The notes under the pieces: generated by a model
The model's database searches: none
What the model was told of the DNA's origin: nothing
The model's input: only the letters and a program-made list of their open reading frames with translations
Source of the DNA: Novosphingobium sp. MW5
Lineage (GTDB): Bacteria > Pseudomonadota > Alphaproteobacteria > Sphingomonadales > Sphingomonadaceae
Length of the DNA: 64,000 nt
NCBI GenBank assembly: GCA_025938935.1
Contig: JAPCWB010000001.1
Coordinates: 1-64,000, forward strand
Direction of reading: 5' to 3'
Made by a program: the position numbers and the translations under genes
Shown here: positions 4,093 through 21,253 of the stretch, one piece after another
Numbering within the stretch: the stretch's first letter is position 1
How the letters are laid out: each line of letters opens with the position of its first letter

Positions 4093-4917
4093 TTAACGCA
4101 GCAGCGACAGGACGTTCTGCTGGCTCTGGTTGGCCTGCGAAAGCATCGCGGTCGAAGCCTGGCTGAGGATCTGGGCCTTCGCCATCTGCGTGGTTTCGGT
4201 CGAATAGTCCGCGTCCATGATGCGGCTGCGGGCGTCCGACAGGTTGGTGGCGTTCGAGGTCAGGTTGTTGACCGCCGACTGCAGCTGCGATTCACCGGCA
4301 CCGAAGCCGGCGTTGGTGGCAGCGACTTCCGCCAGGGCCAGGTCGACGTTCGCCATCGTGGTGGTGGCGAGGGCAGCCGTGGTCACATCGAGCGCGGTGG
4401 CGTCGATATTGGTGCCGTCGATCGCGGTCGAGGTCAGCGTGATCACGTCGCTCGAGTTCGCACCGGCCTGGATGTCGAAGGTGATGTCCGTACCGGCGGT
4501 CGTGCTGAACAGCGCGTTGCCGTTGAACTTGGTGTCCGACAGGACCGAACCGATCTGGCTGGTGAGCGAGGTGACTTCTGCCTGCATGTTGGTGCGGCCA
4601 GCCGACTGATATGTGCCCGAAGCCGACTGCACGGCCAGTTCACGAACGCGCTGCAGCATGTTGGTGACTTCGTTGAGTGCACCTTCCGCCGTCTGGGCAA
4701 GGCTGATGCCGTCGTTGGCGTTGCGCACGCCCTGGTTCATGCCATTGATCTGTGCCGTCATCGAGGTGGAGATGGCGAGGCCGGCGGCATCGTCCTTGGC
4801 CGTGTTGATGCGCTTGCCGGTGGACAGGCGCTGCATTGCCGTGCCCAGCATGGCCGCAGCCTGGGTCGACGAATTGGCGGCGCGCATTGCGCCGATATTG
4901 GTGTTGATTACCGACAT
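4093..4917 (-). CDS. fliC: Flagellin
   Basis: Filament subunit exported through the flagellar type III system. At 274 residues it is a short flagellin with conserved D0/D1 ends (MSVINTNIGAMRAANSS, LSTGKRINTAKDDAAGLAIS, and C-terminal ASTAMLSQANQSQQNVLSLL). The variable middle part is only about 60 Thr/Asp-rich residues, so the outer D2/D3 domains are absent or minimal. It is the only flagellar gene on the minus strand here and stands alone between a terminator and a long divergent control region with CGGCAA repeats. This fits late-class, separately controlled expression. Confidence 0.97.
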   Translation of the reverse strand: MSVINTNIGAMRAANSSTQAAAMLGTAMQRLSTGKRINTAKDDAAGLAISTSMTAQINGMNQGVRNANDGISLAQTAEGALNEVTNMLQRVRELAVQSASGTYQSAGRTNMQAEVTSLTSQIGSVLSDTKFNGNALFSTTAGTDITFDIQAGANSSDVITLTSTAIDGTNIDATALDVTTAALATTTMANVDLALAEVAATNAGFGAGESQLQSAVNNLTSNATNLSDARSRIMDADYSTETTQMAKAQILSQASTAMLSQANQSQQNVLSLLR

Positions 4918-4987
4918 GGTGTACTCCCGTGTGAAGTCCCGAGTGGATCAGCGCACCAGACCGTCCGGCGGCGCTGCCAGCCAAAAG

Positions 4988-5119
4988 ACCGGCAAGCCAC
5001 CGGCAAGTTTAAGCCGCACCCGGCAAAGGCCTGCCGCCTGACCGGCAAAACCACGGGCAAATCCCTAGGGGTAAATTCGAGGACTTAAATTACCGGTCTC
5101 TTTGTCGTTCACGCGGCAA
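4988..5119. promoter_or_regulatory. CGGCAA repeat array in the fliC/activator intergenic region
   Basis: The motif (A)CCGGCAA occurs with GGCAA at 4991, 5002, 5022, 5044 and 5115, and a variant CGGGCAA at 5054-5060. The first five sit about 11, 20, 22 and 12 bases apart, close to whole DNA turns, so they would lie on one face of the helix. FlbD-type enhancer sites (ftr) of Caulobacter flagellar promoters contain similar CGGCAA half-sites. The neighbouring gene encodes a sigma-54 activator. Role as an enhancer for fliC and/or for the activator gene is inferred. Confidence 0.5.
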
Positions 5120-5130: not shown

Positions 5131-5160
5131 TCGAATGGTTAATGACGGGGTTTGACTTCG

Positions 5161-6450
5161 ATGACGGGAATGGAATTTTCTTCGGCTGCAAATGCGCTCC
5201 ACGCGCCGCTGCTGCACCGCGCGCAGGCCGTGCTGGGCATGAGCCCGGTGACGGCAAGCGGCGAATCGCTCGCCGTTTGCGACATCGAAGAGGGCCGCAG
5301 CGTTCCCGCCGGCCGCGCCGCGATCACCCTCGCCCGCGCCTCGCACCCCTCGCTCACCCGCCGCGAAGGCACCGGGCGCCACGTACTGGCCTATTCGGAC
5401 CCGGTCAGCGAAGCCTCGCTCGCCGCGTTTCTTGCCGCGGCCACGCCAGATGGCATGCCGATCGCGCTCGATGCCGAGAGCCTGTCGATCCTGGCGCTGG
5501 CCGAGCGCCTCGCCGCCAGCGAGATCCCCGTCCTCATCAACGGCCCCACCGGCACCGGCAAGGAAGTGCTGAGCCGCTTCATCCACGCCCGCAGCCCGCG
5601 CAAGGACAAGCCCTTCGTCGCGGTCAACTGCGCCGCCATGCCCGAAACCATGCTGGAAGCCATGCTGTTCGGCCACCAGAAGGGCGCCTTCACCGGTGCT
5701 ACCGGCGCAAGCGAAGGCTTCTTCCGCGCGGCCGACGGCGGCACGCTGCTGCTCGATGAAATCGCCGAGATGCCGCTGCAATTGCAGGCCAAGCTGCTGC
5801 GCGCACTGCAGGAAGGCGAAGTCGTGCCCATCGGCGCGACCCAGCCGATCAAGGTGGACGTTCGCGTCATCGCCTGCGCCAACCGCGACCTGCCGCTCGA
5901 AGTTCAGGAAGGTCGCTTCCGCGCCGACCTCTATTACCGCCTCAACGTTTTCCCCCTGGCGCTGAAGCCGCTGCGCGATCGGCCCGAGGACATCGCCCCG
6001 CTCGCCTTCGCCATGGTCCTGCGCCACTCGCCGCAGGGGCTCCCCGCCCCGTGGCTGTCGGACGCCGCCATCGCCATGCTGAAGCACCACGGCTGGGCCG
6101 GTAACGTGCGCGAGCTGGAAAACGTGGTGCGCCGCGCGCTGCTGCTCGCCCAGGGCACGGCCATGATCGGCCCCGAACACATTCACTTCGATTCGGCCGC
6201 ACGGCTGGTCGAAGCGGCACCGTCTGTCGCTGGCGGGGATATACCCGTCTCGATCCCCGCCAGCGGCGGACGCAAGCTGTCGAACATCGTCCAGATCCAC
6301 GAAGCCCGCGCGATCATGGAAGTGCTCTCCTCGGTCGGCGGCAGCCGGGTCGAAGCGGCGCGCCAGCTCGGCATTTCGGAGCGCACGCTGCGCTACCGCC
6401 TCGCCTCGTTCCGTGAGGCCGGCATTGCGGTGGCTGGAGGCCGTCGATGA
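5161..6450 (+). CDS. Sigma-54-dependent activator (FlbD/FleQ-like) without receiver domain
   Basis: AAA+ enhancer-binding protein that opens sigma-54 promoters. It shows Walker A GPTGTGKE (about 128-135), the sigma-54-contacting loop GAFTGA (about 175-180), Walker B GGTLLLDEI, and a Fis-type C-terminal helix-turn-helix (VEAARQLGISERTLRYRL). The N-terminal 110 residues do not resemble a receiver domain, unlike Caulobacter FlbD, so phosphorylation control is unlikely. ATG 5161 is preferred, with GGGG 10 bases upstream; a TTG at 5152 is also in frame. Divergent from fliC and overlapping fliE by ATGA, it is probably the master activator of this locus. Confidence 0.9.
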   Translation: MTGMEFSSAANALHAPLLHRAQAVLGMSPVTASGESLAVCDIEEGRSVPAGRAAITLARASHPSLTRREGTGRHVLAYSDPVSEASLAAFLAAATPDGMPIALDAESLSILALAERLAASEIPVLINGPTGTGKEVLSRFIHARSPRKDKPFVAVNCAAMPETMLEAMLFGHQKGAFTGATGASEGFFRAADGGTLLLDEIAEMPLQLQAKLLRALQEGEVVPIGATQPIKVDVRVIACANRDLPLEVQEGRFRADLYYRLNVFPLALKPLRDRPEDIAPLAFAMVLRHSPQGLPAPWLSDAAIAMLKHHGWAGNVRELENVVRRALLLAQGTAMIGPEHIHFDSAARLVEAAPSVAGGDIPVSIPASGGRKLSNIVQIHEARAIMEVLSSVGGSRVEAARQLGISERTLRYRLASFREAGIAVAGGRR

Positions 6451-9628: not shown

Positions 9629-10214
9629 CCTCGCCGCGCTCTCCTCAGTAGCGCCGAGGACCGGCTTCCGCGAGGACGTGCGCTTTGGCGCCGCCGCGCA
9701 CGAGCCGCGCCCTGCGCCGCCGCCCGAACCGGTGGAAGCACCGCAGGATCCGGTCGAAGCGGCCTTCAACGAGGGCTTCAACGCCGGGGTCGATGCCACC
9801 CTGGCCGATGCTGCCGCGCGGATCGACGCGGATGTGGCGGCGCGCGAAAAGCTCGGCCTGTCGATGGCCCGTCTTGACGGCGACCTGGCCGAGGAGCTGC
9901 GCCAGCGCTTCATCGATACGGTCATGGCGCTGTGCGAGGCGACGCTGGTTCCCTTCGCGCTCGACATGGATGCGCTCGCCGCGCGGGTAACGCGCGCCGT
10001 CGCCATGCTCTCACGCGCCGATGACGAGCGGGTGATCCGGCTCAATCCCGAGGACCTGAAACTGGTCGCGGGCAAGCTTGACCAGCAATGGACGGTCAGC
10101 GCCGATCCTTCGCTGGCGCGCGGCGAACTGCGCGTGGAAACTGCCAATGGCGGGGTCGAGGACGGCCCGGCGCAGTGGCGGCGGGCGCTCGCCGAGGCGT
10201 TTGAATCGTGCTGA
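9621..10214 (+). CDS. fliH: Flagellar assembly protein FliH
   Basis: Regulatory partner of the FliI ATPase in flagellar type III export. The 197-residue protein has an acidic/proline-rich N-terminus (RPAPPPEPVEAPQDPVEAAF), an Ala-rich helical middle and a C-terminal FliH/HrpE-like domain (VIRLNPEDLKLVAGKL, then GELRVETANGGVEDG). It overlaps fliG by 8 bases and fliI by 7. Identity rests on its position and the C-terminal domain, since FliH proteins diverge quickly. Confidence 0.88.
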   Translation: MSSLAALSSVAPRTGFREDVRFGAAAHEPRPAPPPEPVEAPQDPVEAAFNEGFNAGVDATLADAAARIDADVAAREKLGLSMARLDGDLAEELRQRFIDTVMALCEATLVPFALDMDALAARVTRAVAMLSRADDERVIRLNPEDLKLVAGKLDQQWTVSADPSLARGELRVETANGGVEDGPAQWRRALAEAFESC

Positions 10215-11551: not shown

Positions 11552-11966
11552 ACAAGCGAAATTGCTGCGCCTGCGCCGGCTCGAAAAGGTCCGCGACATC
11601 GCCAAGCAAGCCGCCGCGCGCGAGGCGGCCGAGGCGGAGTCCACCCTTGCCCAGCTGGAGGCGCTTGCCGCGCGCACCGGCCAGCTGATCGGCGACTATG
11701 CCACCCGCATCGACGCGCCCGATGCGGCATCGCTGCGCCTGCTCACCTCGTTCCGCACCAGCCTTGCCGGCGTGGGCGAGGCAACCCGCACCGATGCCCT
11801 GCGCGCGAAGACCTTTGCCGATGCCAAGCTCGCCCACCTCGCCGCCGCCGAACGCAGCCGGCAGGCCGTGGAAGACCGCGCGCGCAGCACGGCAGAAGCC
11901 TTGGCCCAGGCCGCCACCCCCATGGCCCAGGGCGCCAGAAAGCAACTTGGCACGGCTCTTGAATAG
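11535..11966 (+). CDS. fliJ: Flagellar export protein FliJ
   Basis: Small coiled-coil stalk of the FliH-FliI-FliJ ATPase complex. The 143-residue protein is almost wholly helical and rich in Ala, Glu, Arg and Lys (LRLRRLEKVRDIAKQAAAREAAEAE), as expected. The start is TTG 11535 within fliI. No ATG is available near the beginning of the frame, so the TTG is accepted because of the coupled overlap. Identity comes from coiled-coil form and position between fliI and fliK. Confidence 0.85.
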   Translation: MAKAAEQAKLLRLRRLEKVRDIAKQAAAREAAEAESTLAQLEALAARTGQLIGDYATRIDAPDAASLRLLTSFRTSLAGVGEATRTDALRAKTFADAKLAHLAAAERSRQAVEDRARSTAEALAQAATPMAQGARKQLGTALE

Positions 11967-11997: not shown

Positions 11998-13560
11998 ATG
12001 TTCGATCCAGCCGCATCGCTGATGAAGTCGATGGGCCTTGCCATGCCGGCGGAAAGCGCGGGCAGCGTGATCCCGGCCGTTCCGGGCGAAGGCGTCGAAG
12101 CGGCAGGAAATGGCGGATTTGCGAACCTTCTGGCGATCAAGCTGGAAACTGCCGCGCCGAACCTGACGATCGACGCCGCCATGCAGCCTGCGCCCCAGCC
12201 AGCCGCCGAAACCTCCGCGCCCGCGCTTCTCGCGCCCGCTGCCACCGACCTCCCGGCAAAGGCGCTGCCGGCAACCGGCAAGATGTTGCCGCTTGACCTG
12301 CCGGTGGCCTTGCCGGTCGCGCCCACTGCCCCTGCGCCCCGGCTAGCCACCCCTGCAATTGCGCTGGCTTTGCCCACACCCGAACCGGTTACGGCTGCGA
12401 AGCCGGTGCCACTGGAGGCCGTGCAGGTACACGCGAAGGCAGCCACTCCCATCCAAGACCCGGCCGCTCCTGCTGAGGCAGTTCGCGCCGAGCCCGCCCT
12501 CGCGCCGCTGGCTGCCCGCGCGGCCGCACTCCCTGCGCAGCCTGCCGACGATGCAGCCATGGCTCCCGAAGCTGAAGCTGCCACCGAACCCCAGCCCGCC
12601 CACGCGCCGCTGCCCGTTCAGACCGTACCAGTGAAGACCCGCCCTGCCGTGCGCGCTGCCGAAGCGCGGCCCGCCGATCAGCCTGAGCACGCCGACGATC
12701 AGCCAGAGCTTTCGCAACCAGAGGAGCCGAAGGCCGAACAGCGGCAGCCTTTTCCGGTCCTTACCAACGCCAACCCGCTGGTCCCCGTCAGCCCTGCACC
12801 GGTCGAGACCACGCCCGGCGAGCTTCCCCGAAGCGCGCCGCGCGCCCGTGCTGCCGCGCCGCTGTCCGCGGTTGCGGCAACGACGCGCGAAGCTGGCCCC
12901 GAAGGCCCACGCGCCGATCTGGCCCAGCTGGCTCCGACTGTGCAGCAGCCCCAGCCGCAGGTCCCGCAAGCCACGATCCGCATTGCCGCCGCTCCGGCAG
13001 ATGCACGCCGCGAAGGCGAGCCCGTAACGGTCGCCGCCCGTGCCGGTGAGGCCGAGCCCGCAAGCGAAACCGCGCCCGCCACCGCCGCGCCCCGCACCGC
13101 GCAGCCATTTGCCATGCTCTCCCCCGCCATGCCCGCCCAGGCTCCGCTCACCCTTTCCGCCATGCCTGCAAGCGCCGTTCAGGCCCCGGCCGACTTCGCC
13201 CAGATCGTCGACCGGCTGGTCGCGGCGCGCGAGGCGGTGGCCCCGTCCGAAGTGCGCGTGACCATCGACCATGCGCAATTCGGCAAGGTCTCGGTTGGCT
13301 TCACTCCCGATAGCTCGGGGATGAGCGTGACGCTTGCCGCCGCCGACCCCGAATTCGCCCGCGCGGTGGAGGCAGCAGCCCCCTTCGCGCCGCCTTCCGT
13401 GACCACCGAAACGCAGCCGATCCCCGCCCCCGCTGCCGCGCGCGGTGCTGACCTGACCTCCGCCTTCACTGGCCAGCAGGGCCAGCAGGCGAGCCGCCAG
13501 GCGCCGCAGGACACACGCCCTTCCGGCCCCCAGAGCCAACCCTTCCGCCCGCACCTCTGA
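11998..13560 (+). CDS. fliK: Flagellar hook-length control protein FliK
   Basis: Secreted ruler that fixes hook length and switches export to filament substrates. The roughly 520 residues are mostly Ala/Pro-rich and low-complexity. The compact C-terminal domain is recognisable by SEVRVTIDHAQFGKVSVGF, the FliK signature region that touches FlhB. ATG 11998 has AAGGGGG 9 bases upstream and is preferred over TTG 11992. The tail is Gln/Arg-rich (GQQGQQASRQAPQDTRPSGP). Length and composition are normal for alphaproteobacterial FliK. Confidence 0.88.
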   Translation: MFDPAASLMKSMGLAMPAESAGSVIPAVPGEGVEAAGNGGFANLLAIKLETAAPNLTIDAAMQPAPQPAAETSAPALLAPAATDLPAKALPATGKMLPLDLPVALPVAPTAPAPRLATPAIALALPTPEPVTAAKPVPLEAVQVHAKAATPIQDPAAPAEAVRAEPALAPLAARAAALPAQPADDAAMAPEAEAATEPQPAHAPLPVQTVPVKTRPAVRAAEARPADQPEHADDQPELSQPEEPKAEQRQPFPVLTNANPLVPVSPAPVETTPGELPRSAPRARAAAPLSAVAATTREAGPEGPRADLAQLAPTVQQPQPQVPQATIRIAAAPADARREGEPVTVAARAGEAEPASETAPATAAPRTAQPFAMLSPAMPAQAPLTLSAMPASAVQAPADFAQIVDRLVAAREAVAPSEVRVTIDHAQFGKVSVGFTPDSSGMSVTLAAADPEFARAVEAAAPFAPPSVTTETQPIPAPAAARGADLTSAFTGQQGQQASRQAPQDTRPSGPQSQPFRPHL

Positions 13561-18582: not shown

Positions 18583-18641
18583 TCCGGAAAAAGCCCTAAG
18601 TCTCCCCTTAAGGCCGCACAGGTTTCGCCGTTCTGACTGTC

Positions 18642-20650: not shown

Positions 20651-21253
20651 ATGAGCACACGCACCAGCATCCTCCTTGTCGATGGCGATTTTCGCCGTCG
20701 CGCGGCCATCTCCCACTGCCTCACCGGCAGCGCGCTTCACGTCGAACCGTTCGAGGATGCAGGCGAGTTCATTGCCCGCGGCCCGCGTGAAGGGGTGGCC
20801 CTGGTCCATGATGACGGTCGCGGGATTACCCCCCTACTCGACTACATGAGCGCCAGCGGCAACTGGCTGCCGATCATCGCCTTCGCCGAAAACCCGGAAC
20901 CGCGCACCATCGTGGAATCGGTCCTGGCCGGTGCGGTCGATTACCTTGGCTGGCCGTTCGATGCCGAAACCATCCAGCAGAGCGTCCTGCTCGCCGAAAA
21001 CCGTGCCGCCGCCAATGCCGGATCTCGGCTGCGCGAAGCCGTGGCCCGCAGCCGGATCGAGCGCCTGACCCGCCGCGAACGCGAAGTGCTCGCCGGGGTG
21101 GCTGACGGCCTGTCGAACCGCCTGATCGGCGAAAAACTCGCCATCTCGCCGCGCACGGTGGAAATCCACCGCGCCAACATGCTCAACAAGATGGGCGCAA
21201 CTCACACCAGCGAAGCAATCCGCATCGCGATCGAGGCGTCGCTCATCAATTGA
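20651..21253 (+). CDS. FixJ/LuxR-type response regulator with atypical receiver
   Basis: Transcription regulator of 200 residues: a receiver-like domain (about 1-115) and a LuxR/FixJ helix-turn-helix (RLTRREREVLAGVADGLSNR to RTVEIHRANMLNKMG, about 137-180). The receiver keeps an acidic pair (D11, D13) and a candidate phospho-acceptor D54 in LVHDDG. The conserved Lys of the usual DYLxKPF motif is replaced by Trp (DYLGWPFD). No histidine kinase is nearby. It follows fliS after a 190-base AT-richer gap and probably has its own promoter there. A role as a phosphorylation-independent regulator of the flagellar genes is inferred from position. Confidence 0.85.
   Translation: MSTRTSILLVDGDFRRRAAISHCLTGSALHVEPFEDAGEFIARGPREGVALVHDDGRGITPLLDYMSASGNWLPIIAFAENPEPRTIVESVLAGAVDYLGWPFDAETIQQSVLLAENRAAANAGSRLREAVARSRIERLTRREREVLAGVADGLSNRLIGEKLAISPRTVEIHRANMLNKMGATHTSEAIRIAIEASLIN

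Follow-up and report, generated by a model that had tools for sequence, protein, structure and literature searches.

A putative operator of an FlbD-like sigma54 activator at the sigma28-type fliC promoter of Novosphingobium sp. MW5

Introduction

Caulobacter flagellin genes carry an enhancer and a sigma54 promoter, and in systems governed by FlrC, FleR or FlgR the late flagellar genes are under FliA. The Caulobacter protein FlbD, a flagellar sigma54 activator, is described as repressing fliF at ftr4 and activating middle and late genes (PMC3930126; also PMC3096577). FlrC, FleR and FlgR, likewise sigma54 activators of rod and hook genes, are presented as two-component response regulators (PMC7064773). 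The enteric scheme, in which flagellin is controlled by FliA and FlgM, is outlined in a 2025 paper according to which no flagellum-specific sigma factor is known for the alphaproteobacteria (PMC12826043). Among the sphingomonads, the cluster of Sphingopyxis granuli is reported to hold a putative sigma54 activator, fliA, flgM and flagellins, which are jointly repressed in anoxia (PMC6472365). In the account given for Sphingomonas sp. WG, by contrast, both FlbD and FliX are reported and the flagellar clusters yielded no fliA (PMC8921679), so that sphingomonads differ among themselves. A search of titles and abstracts, covering part of the literature, gave no earlier report of FlbD-type sites at a FliA promoter in this group.

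Here we describe the region between fliC and a divergent gene for an FlbD-like sigma54 activator in a 64,000-nucleotide stretch of Novosphingobium sp. MW5 DNA, referred to as the window. The activator resembles Caulobacter FlbD in being a flagellar sigma54 activator, and the dual action proposed below, activation of some flagellar promoters and repression of another, has a precedent because Caulobacter FlbD is described as doing both. The protein, however, scores far below the cut-off of the FlbD model, no FliX was found in the genome, and what would be its second target is a flagellin promoter of the sigma28 type. It also lacks a Pfam receiver match, unlike the response regulators of the FlrC/FleR/FlgR kind. 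The locus shares with the FliA/FlgM scheme a FliA-like sigma factor, FlgM and a sigma28-type fliC promoter, but has in addition putative sigma54-activator palindromes on or beside that promoter. The site system would be a variant of FlbD-type flagellar control and not a new kind of control.

Results

Setting of the locus and comparison set

The window forms the start of contig C1 of a 4.02 Mb genome in seven contigs, estimated to be ~97% complete and 6.5% contaminated. The flagellar cluster continues at the other end of C1 (locus L111) with genes for a FliA-like sigma factor, FlhA, SLT (lytic-transglycosylase-like), FlgM, FlgA, a MotA-like protein and FlgB, and with flgN, recognized by a sub-threshold Pfam match; RpoN is also present in the genome. 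Among 80 related loci the closest named relative was a Sphingomonadaceae MAG, whose activator is 79% and whose flagellin 88% identical, the others being mostly Novosphingobium. The window region and 75 related fliC/activator intergenic regions made up a set of 76, after L020, L028, L053, L064 and L068 had been dropped for want of a divergent fliC start within 700 bp. The promoter was not anchored in L054 and L085, which were left out of the slot counts. Some genomes occur in two of the sets used below (G068/L078 and G030/L045), so these sets are not independent. The features of the window are collected in Table 1.

Table 1. Positions of the genes, promoter elements and candidate binding sites in the window
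Feature	Position	Strand	Remarks
fliC, flagellin	4093..4917	-	Pfam Flagellin_N and Flagellin_C
-10 element GCCGGTCT of the fliC promoter	4986..4993	-	
CGGCAA half-site overlapping the -10 element	4990..4995	+	the one half of slot -12 that this genome retains well
Imperfect palindrome	5001..5016		2 mismatches; spans the -35 element and includes the CGGCAA at 5001
-35 element CTTAAA of the sigma28-type fliC promoter	5008..5013	-	
Full palindrome CGGCAAAGGCCTGCCG, slot -43	5021..5036		proposed operator
Lone half-site CGGCAA	5043..5048	+	22 bp away from where the full palindrome begins
Sigma28-like CTTAA-N15-GTCGTT, activator side	5084..5109	+	
ATGGTTAA, conserved word upstream of the activator start	5135..5142	+	56/76 regions; 0.0 in shuffles
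FlbD-like sigma54 activator, proposed binder	5164..6450	+	Pfam Sigma54_activat, HTH_8
Sigma54-like promoter TGGCACGGCTCTTGAA, upstream of the fliK-position gene	11948..11963	+	
Full palindrome inside the fliK-position gene	12276..12291		proposed downstream enhancer

A sigma28-type promoter upstream of fliC

The sequence CTTAAA-N14-GCCG[GC]TCT, read in the fliC direction, scored at least 12 of 14 in 75 of the 76 regions as against 4 of 380 shuffles, a score that is partly circular because the consensus was first read by eye from these same sequences. Its spacing and place are not circular: a spacing of 14, one base shorter than the N15 of enteric sigma28 promoters, was picked in 72 of the 76 regions with 13-16 permitted, and the -10 element ended 60-104 nt upstream of the ATG in 74 of them. 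Judged by its sequence against the sigma28 consensus, the fliC promoter is of the sigma28 (FliA) type (window 5013-4986, minus strand), with a predicted transcription start near 4978. The genome encodes a FliA-like sigma factor, whose best family match, FliA_WhiG, reaches 179 bits where the cut-off is 189.6, and FlgM is present as well.

An earlier note on this DNA had placed the cluster of CGGCAA words possibly downstream of the fliC promoter and had seen in it a densely packed platform for activator binding. Because the sigma28 core occupies 4986-5013, the cluster (4990-5060) lies instead on and upstream of the fliC promoter. No sigma54 promoter was found within one mismatch on either strand of the 76 regions, which speaks against a simple platform serving a sigma54 promoter close by, and at two mismatches only two regions on one strand and one on the other matched, as expected by chance; a sigma54 promoter in the fliC/activator region was therefore rejected.

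A 16 bp palindrome in preferred slots

Exact CGGCAA words start on the plus strand of the window's intergenic region at 4990, 5001, 5021, 5043 and 5114, with a GGGCAA variant at 5055..5060; a recount confirmed GGCAA starts at 4991, 5002, 5022, 5044, 5056 and 5115 and spacings of 11, 20, 22 and 12, as first listed. A lone copy means little because the word is common in the window (162 copies against a mean of 65.7 in shuffles). The 76 intergenic regions together held 97 copies, five of them in the window's own intergenic region, against 12.7 in dinucleotide shuffles, and a search of the 4.02 Mb genome for CGGCAA triplets with gaps of 3-26 gave 14 matches at ~11 places, the reversed-pattern control giving none. 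The words had been treated as sites of equal kind, which they are not: one (4990-4995) overlaps the -10 element at 4986-4993, another is half of a full palindrome, and the rest are lone half-sites. Both the overlap and the inverted half-site at 5031-5036, which completes the perfect 16-bp palindrome at 5021-5036, had been missed.

The unit is the 16-bp inverted repeat CGGCAR-N4-YTGCCG. Exact copies numbered 29, in 23 of the 74 anchored fliC regions (16 of 61 non-redundant ones), with 0.02 expected, and inverted CGGCAR/YTGCCG pairs at other spacers from 0 to 12 were absent from these 74 regions. When the 5' end of the palindrome is numbered from the base at which the -10 element begins, nine copies lay at -12, 11 at -44 to -42 (slot -43), five at -56 to -53 and four elsewhere. 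The arms are what is kept, because the central four bases differ, with seven distinct sequences among the nine copies at -12 and nine among the 11 at -43. Slot -12 spans the -10 element and the spacer, GCCG being common to palindrome and -10, and slot -43 sits just upstream of the -35 element, abutting it and leaving both -35 and -10 free. The slot offsets of ~31 and ~11 bases fit one face of the helix, a fit that is only suggestive because there are just three slots. Half-sites were likewise in excess, with 30 in the promoter spacer against 2.4 expected and 71 upstream of the -35 element against 4.1 expected. In the window the full palindrome fills slot -43, and slot -12 (16 bp, 4990-5005) is degenerate, with three mismatches to the palindrome and one half-site only.

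The conservation to which the earlier note had tied its proposal held in part. A palindrome with at most one mismatch lay within 60 bp upstream of the fliC -10 element in 34 of the 76 regions, 22 of these being exact, but none was found at fliC in 26 further loci that keep the activator, among which the most distant had a weak promoter anchor and L199 a fliC too far away for its promoter to be read. Elsewhere in these 26 stretches a one-mismatch palindrome occurred in five and an exact one in none. The fliC sites are, on this comparison of sequences, lineage-specific. On an activator tree of 102 rows, their presence required at least 12 changes as against 28.7 when shuffled, at least six of them forced by well-supported branches; slot -12 taken singly needed five changes and slot -43 seven. 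This was a quick tree with long branches, on which gains are not separable from losses. The fliC sites look like a later addition that was repeatedly changed, later because the flgB site described below is more widespread.

On the activator side, a sigma28-like element of the form CTTAA-N15-GNCGTT was found in 46 of the 76 regions (0.0 in shuffles), and the conserved word ATGGTTAA resembles a CtrA half-site; the activator operon may be under CtrA and/or FliA. The CGGCAA at 5114 sits at this promoter, where CGGCAR occurred in only 4 of the 46 regions with the element.

The palindrome at putative sigma54 promoters of hook and basal-body genes

The genome contains 13 exact palindromes, seven of them in or beside the flagellar cluster. 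At flgB an exact sigma54 promoter (L111 12064-12079) is accompanied by a palindrome at 12005-12020, and at SLT a one-mismatch sigma54 promoter (L111 9613-9628) by palindromes at 9890 and 9920 within flgN; a third sigma54-like promoter precedes the fliK-position gene, so named for its place between fliI/fliJ and fliL, as it has no Pfam or NCBIfam match. All three promoters were recovered with at most one mismatch in eight of eight genomes, with a palindrome near each, that at flgB being exact in seven and having one mismatch in the other. In a wider survey of 30 flgA loci, six had no flgB-side sigma54 match (partly owing to the locus end) and one had no SLT-side match. Of 24 flgB-side sigma54 promoters, 23 had an exact palindrome no more than 260 bp upstream (control 0/24), and at the SLT-side promoter the same was seen, at 100-420 bp, in 11 of 29 (control 0/29). 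The flgB-side palindromes were often paired, 18-21 bp apart, and their distances clustered near 59, 69, 79, 89 and 99. Not one of 5000 random sets reached this periodicity, a figure that is not a clean probability because the genomes are related. With steps of roughly one turn of the helix, the palindrome at flgB has the appearance of a sigma54 enhancer. Helical phasing, which had been proposed for the words at fliC, is seen for the same palindrome at flgB and is plausible at fliC; a palindrome phased to a -24/-12 promoter was found at the former and not at the latter, where there is no sigma54 promoter.

Two of these arrangements place sites within genes. The flgN coding sequence (L111 9890-9935) carries two exact palindromes 30 bp apart, an exact pair that recurs in six of seven other genomes; they are apparently enhancers within the gene, some ~270-370 bp upstream of the sigma54 promoter. 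At the fliK-position gene, TTGAA or TTGAT replaces TTGCW in the sigma54-like promoter and an exact palindrome lies 173-328 bp downstream of it, in coding sequence, both in eight of eight genomes.

A sigma28 form like that of fliC is also found upstream of flgM in this genome, where sites lie at -41 (1 mismatch) and -65 (exact). G117 has flgM sites at the same slots (-41/-65), G110 at -12/-43 with one mismatch each, G260 at -44, and G264 and G316 at -62 (1 mismatch each); several loci with a flgM sigma28 match, for example L152, L155, L157 and L160, had no flgM palindrome. These sites back the slots defined at fliC in part.

The neighbouring activator as candidate binder

The activator contains a sigma54-activating AAA+ domain (PF00158, 221.9 bits) and a Fis-type helix-turn-helix (PF02954, 41.7 bits), and the FTG of its GAFTGA loop is invariant in 24 relatives. 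Its best NCBIfam match is the FlbD model NF050807, at 339.9 bits and thus below the cut-off of 750; at E <= 1e-150 this model had no match in the genome and was present in 71 of 142 alphaproteobacterial genomes. The activator had previously been taken to be without a receiver domain, and no Pfam receiver match was indeed obtained. Modelled alone, the N-terminal domain of ~100 residues gave a confident fold (pLDDT 87.5), and fold searches with it returned best matches of Z up to 6.0, within noise, some of them receiver-like chains. A PDB sequence search gave nothing below E 0.48; the fold searches used the model of the domain, that of the whole activator being poor over the AAA+ part (mean pLDDT 69.3). 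The earlier note had suggested that protein level alone may set occupancy; going by the modelled fold, the N-terminal domain could take a signal. FliX (PF10768) had no match in this ~97% complete assembly, whereas the Caulobacter vibrioides control matched.

The description of CGGCAA as an FlbD-type half-site was well founded, the same arms being found around the flbD genes of 16 other alphaproteobacteria, 15 of which have a protein over the FlbD cut-off and one (G254) just under it. In these 16 stretches CGGCA-N5-TGCCG occurred 10 times against 0.33 in shuffles, a reading of N5 that is good but not clean because N10 (9), N9 (6) and N7 (6) also exceeded shuffles. The window clade differs in the spacing of these five-base arms, with 41 copies at N6 and two at N5.

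Wherever a close activator was combined with a readable flgB promoter, the flgB palindrome was present, in 22 of 22 genomes: 21 with an activator relative at E <= 2.8e-91 and the genome of the window. Two readable flgB loci had no close activator: G059 was without the palindrome, and G291 (L159) had palindromes at flgB and in flgN with no close activator relative in its whole genome. One guessed 20-kb stretch of G291 held none of the queried flagellar genes. Several other sigma54 activators occur in each genome. This promoter-anchored test was used in place of the genome-wide number of palindromes, which proved uninformative (among 35 family genomes, the 20 with the activator, taken as a best E below 1e-90, had a mean of 10.2 and the other 15 a mean of 8.6). 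The neighbouring FlbD-like activator probably reads the palindrome.

Discussion

The data suggest that a hook-stage regulator also controls flagellin. We lean slightly towards the array being an operator of the neighbouring FlbD-like sigma54 activator, on or beside the sigma28 promoter of fliC. The activator would recognize CGGCAR-N4-YTGCCG; at the flgB operon, SLT and the fliK-position gene the site would serve as an enhancer from which it drives sigma54 RNA polymerase, whereas at fliC a protein in slot -12 would cover the -10 element and spacer and one in slot -43 would abut the -35 element. Bound there, it would stand in the way of FliA RNA polymerase or compete with it, so that while the hook is being built a single protein would switch on the hook genes and restrain flagellin. 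That the effect at fliC is repression has, in our estimate, a little better than an even chance; this sign is natural for slot -12 because a protein lying across the -10 element cannot help FliA polymerase. The window has its palindrome in slot -43, which is compatible with either sign. Against this reading stand the absence of fliC palindromes in over half of the relatives, the degenerate slot -12 of the window and the failure of genome-wide palindrome numbers to separate family genomes with and without the activator, and the flgM sites count against the scheme because repressing the anti-sigma gene too would partly work against it; the palindromes of G291, a genome without a close activator, speak against the neighbouring activator as binder.

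If the activator acted from slot -43 as an ordinary upstream activator, it would stimulate the sigma28 promoter of fliC, and that of flgM, rather than repress it. The slot at -44 to -42 is indeed the commonest exact one (11/29) and leaves -35 and -10 free, and the flgM sites of this genome at -41 and -65 would suit such a role, but an activator in slot -12, which overlaps the -10 element and spacer, would be in the path of polymerase and block it, and spacer half-sites are as much in excess as noted (30 against 2.4). We know of no sigma54 activator that works on sigma28 polymerase, and consider stimulation of this kind unlikely. Enhancers that serve sigma54-dependent transcription of fliC or the activator operon would be in keeping with the apparent sigma54 enhancer that the same palindrome forms at flgB; with a sigma54 promoter at one mismatch or fewer in 0 of the 76 regions and two-mismatch matches at chance, this is very improbable.

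The palindrome might also be read by a protein other than the neighbouring activator. G291, which keeps palindromes without a close activator, and the several further sigma54 activators of each genome would allow this, but the activator gene lies in the flagellar cluster and adjoins fliC, the palindrome is found in 22 of 22 genomes with the activator and a readable flgB promoter, and the half-sites are those of genuine flbD loci; another reader seems to us distinctly unlikely. Scarcely credible, finally, is the view that no regulator binds and that the words are a by-product of local composition and the -10 element. One CGGCAA does overlap the -10 element, the word is frequent in the window, and over half of the relatives have no fliC palindrome, yet 71 half-sites lie upstream of the -35 element, where 4.1 are expected, and 29 palindromes with a unique spacer stand against 0.02.

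Returning to the operator of the FlbD-like activator, it is a tentative suggestion, which we hold at somewhat below even chances, that on the Novosphingobium side of the family a sigma54 activator came to repress FliA polymerase directly where it transcribes flagellin, with repeated gain, shift or loss of its palindrome over the -10 element and spacer or next to the -35 element. If this is true, two layers of flagellar control that are usually separate, that of the hook under sigma54 and that of the filament under sigma28, would meet at one DNA site, and one protein would set both 'hook on' and 'filament off', a checkpoint beyond FlgM export that would work without a classical receiver or FliX. 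The 16-bp palindrome offers a concrete, mutable site with natural variants (present, moved, absent) in dozens of species. The locus is also a documented alphaproteobacterial case of FliA and FlgM combined with an FlbD-like activator, fliA and flgM having already been noted in Sphingopyxis granuli (PMC6472365).

Further promoters and palindromes were seen in the flagellar clusters. Upstream of fliD, identified by Pfam FliD_N and FliD_C, a sigma28-like CTTAAG-N14-GCCGTT (window 18607-18632) ends 9 nt before the ATG and has no palindrome beside it. An exact palindrome at 20857-20872 lies in a LuxR-type regulator gene at the end of the flagellar cluster, and a copy with the same bases occurs on the opposite strand near the cluster of G117. 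A sigma54 promoter precedes flgA in several relatives (L123, L125, L127 and L131), and not in the genome of the window or in G117. In G260, three tandem sigma54-like promoters, 21 bp apart, are found upstream of flgB (L150 3343-3400).
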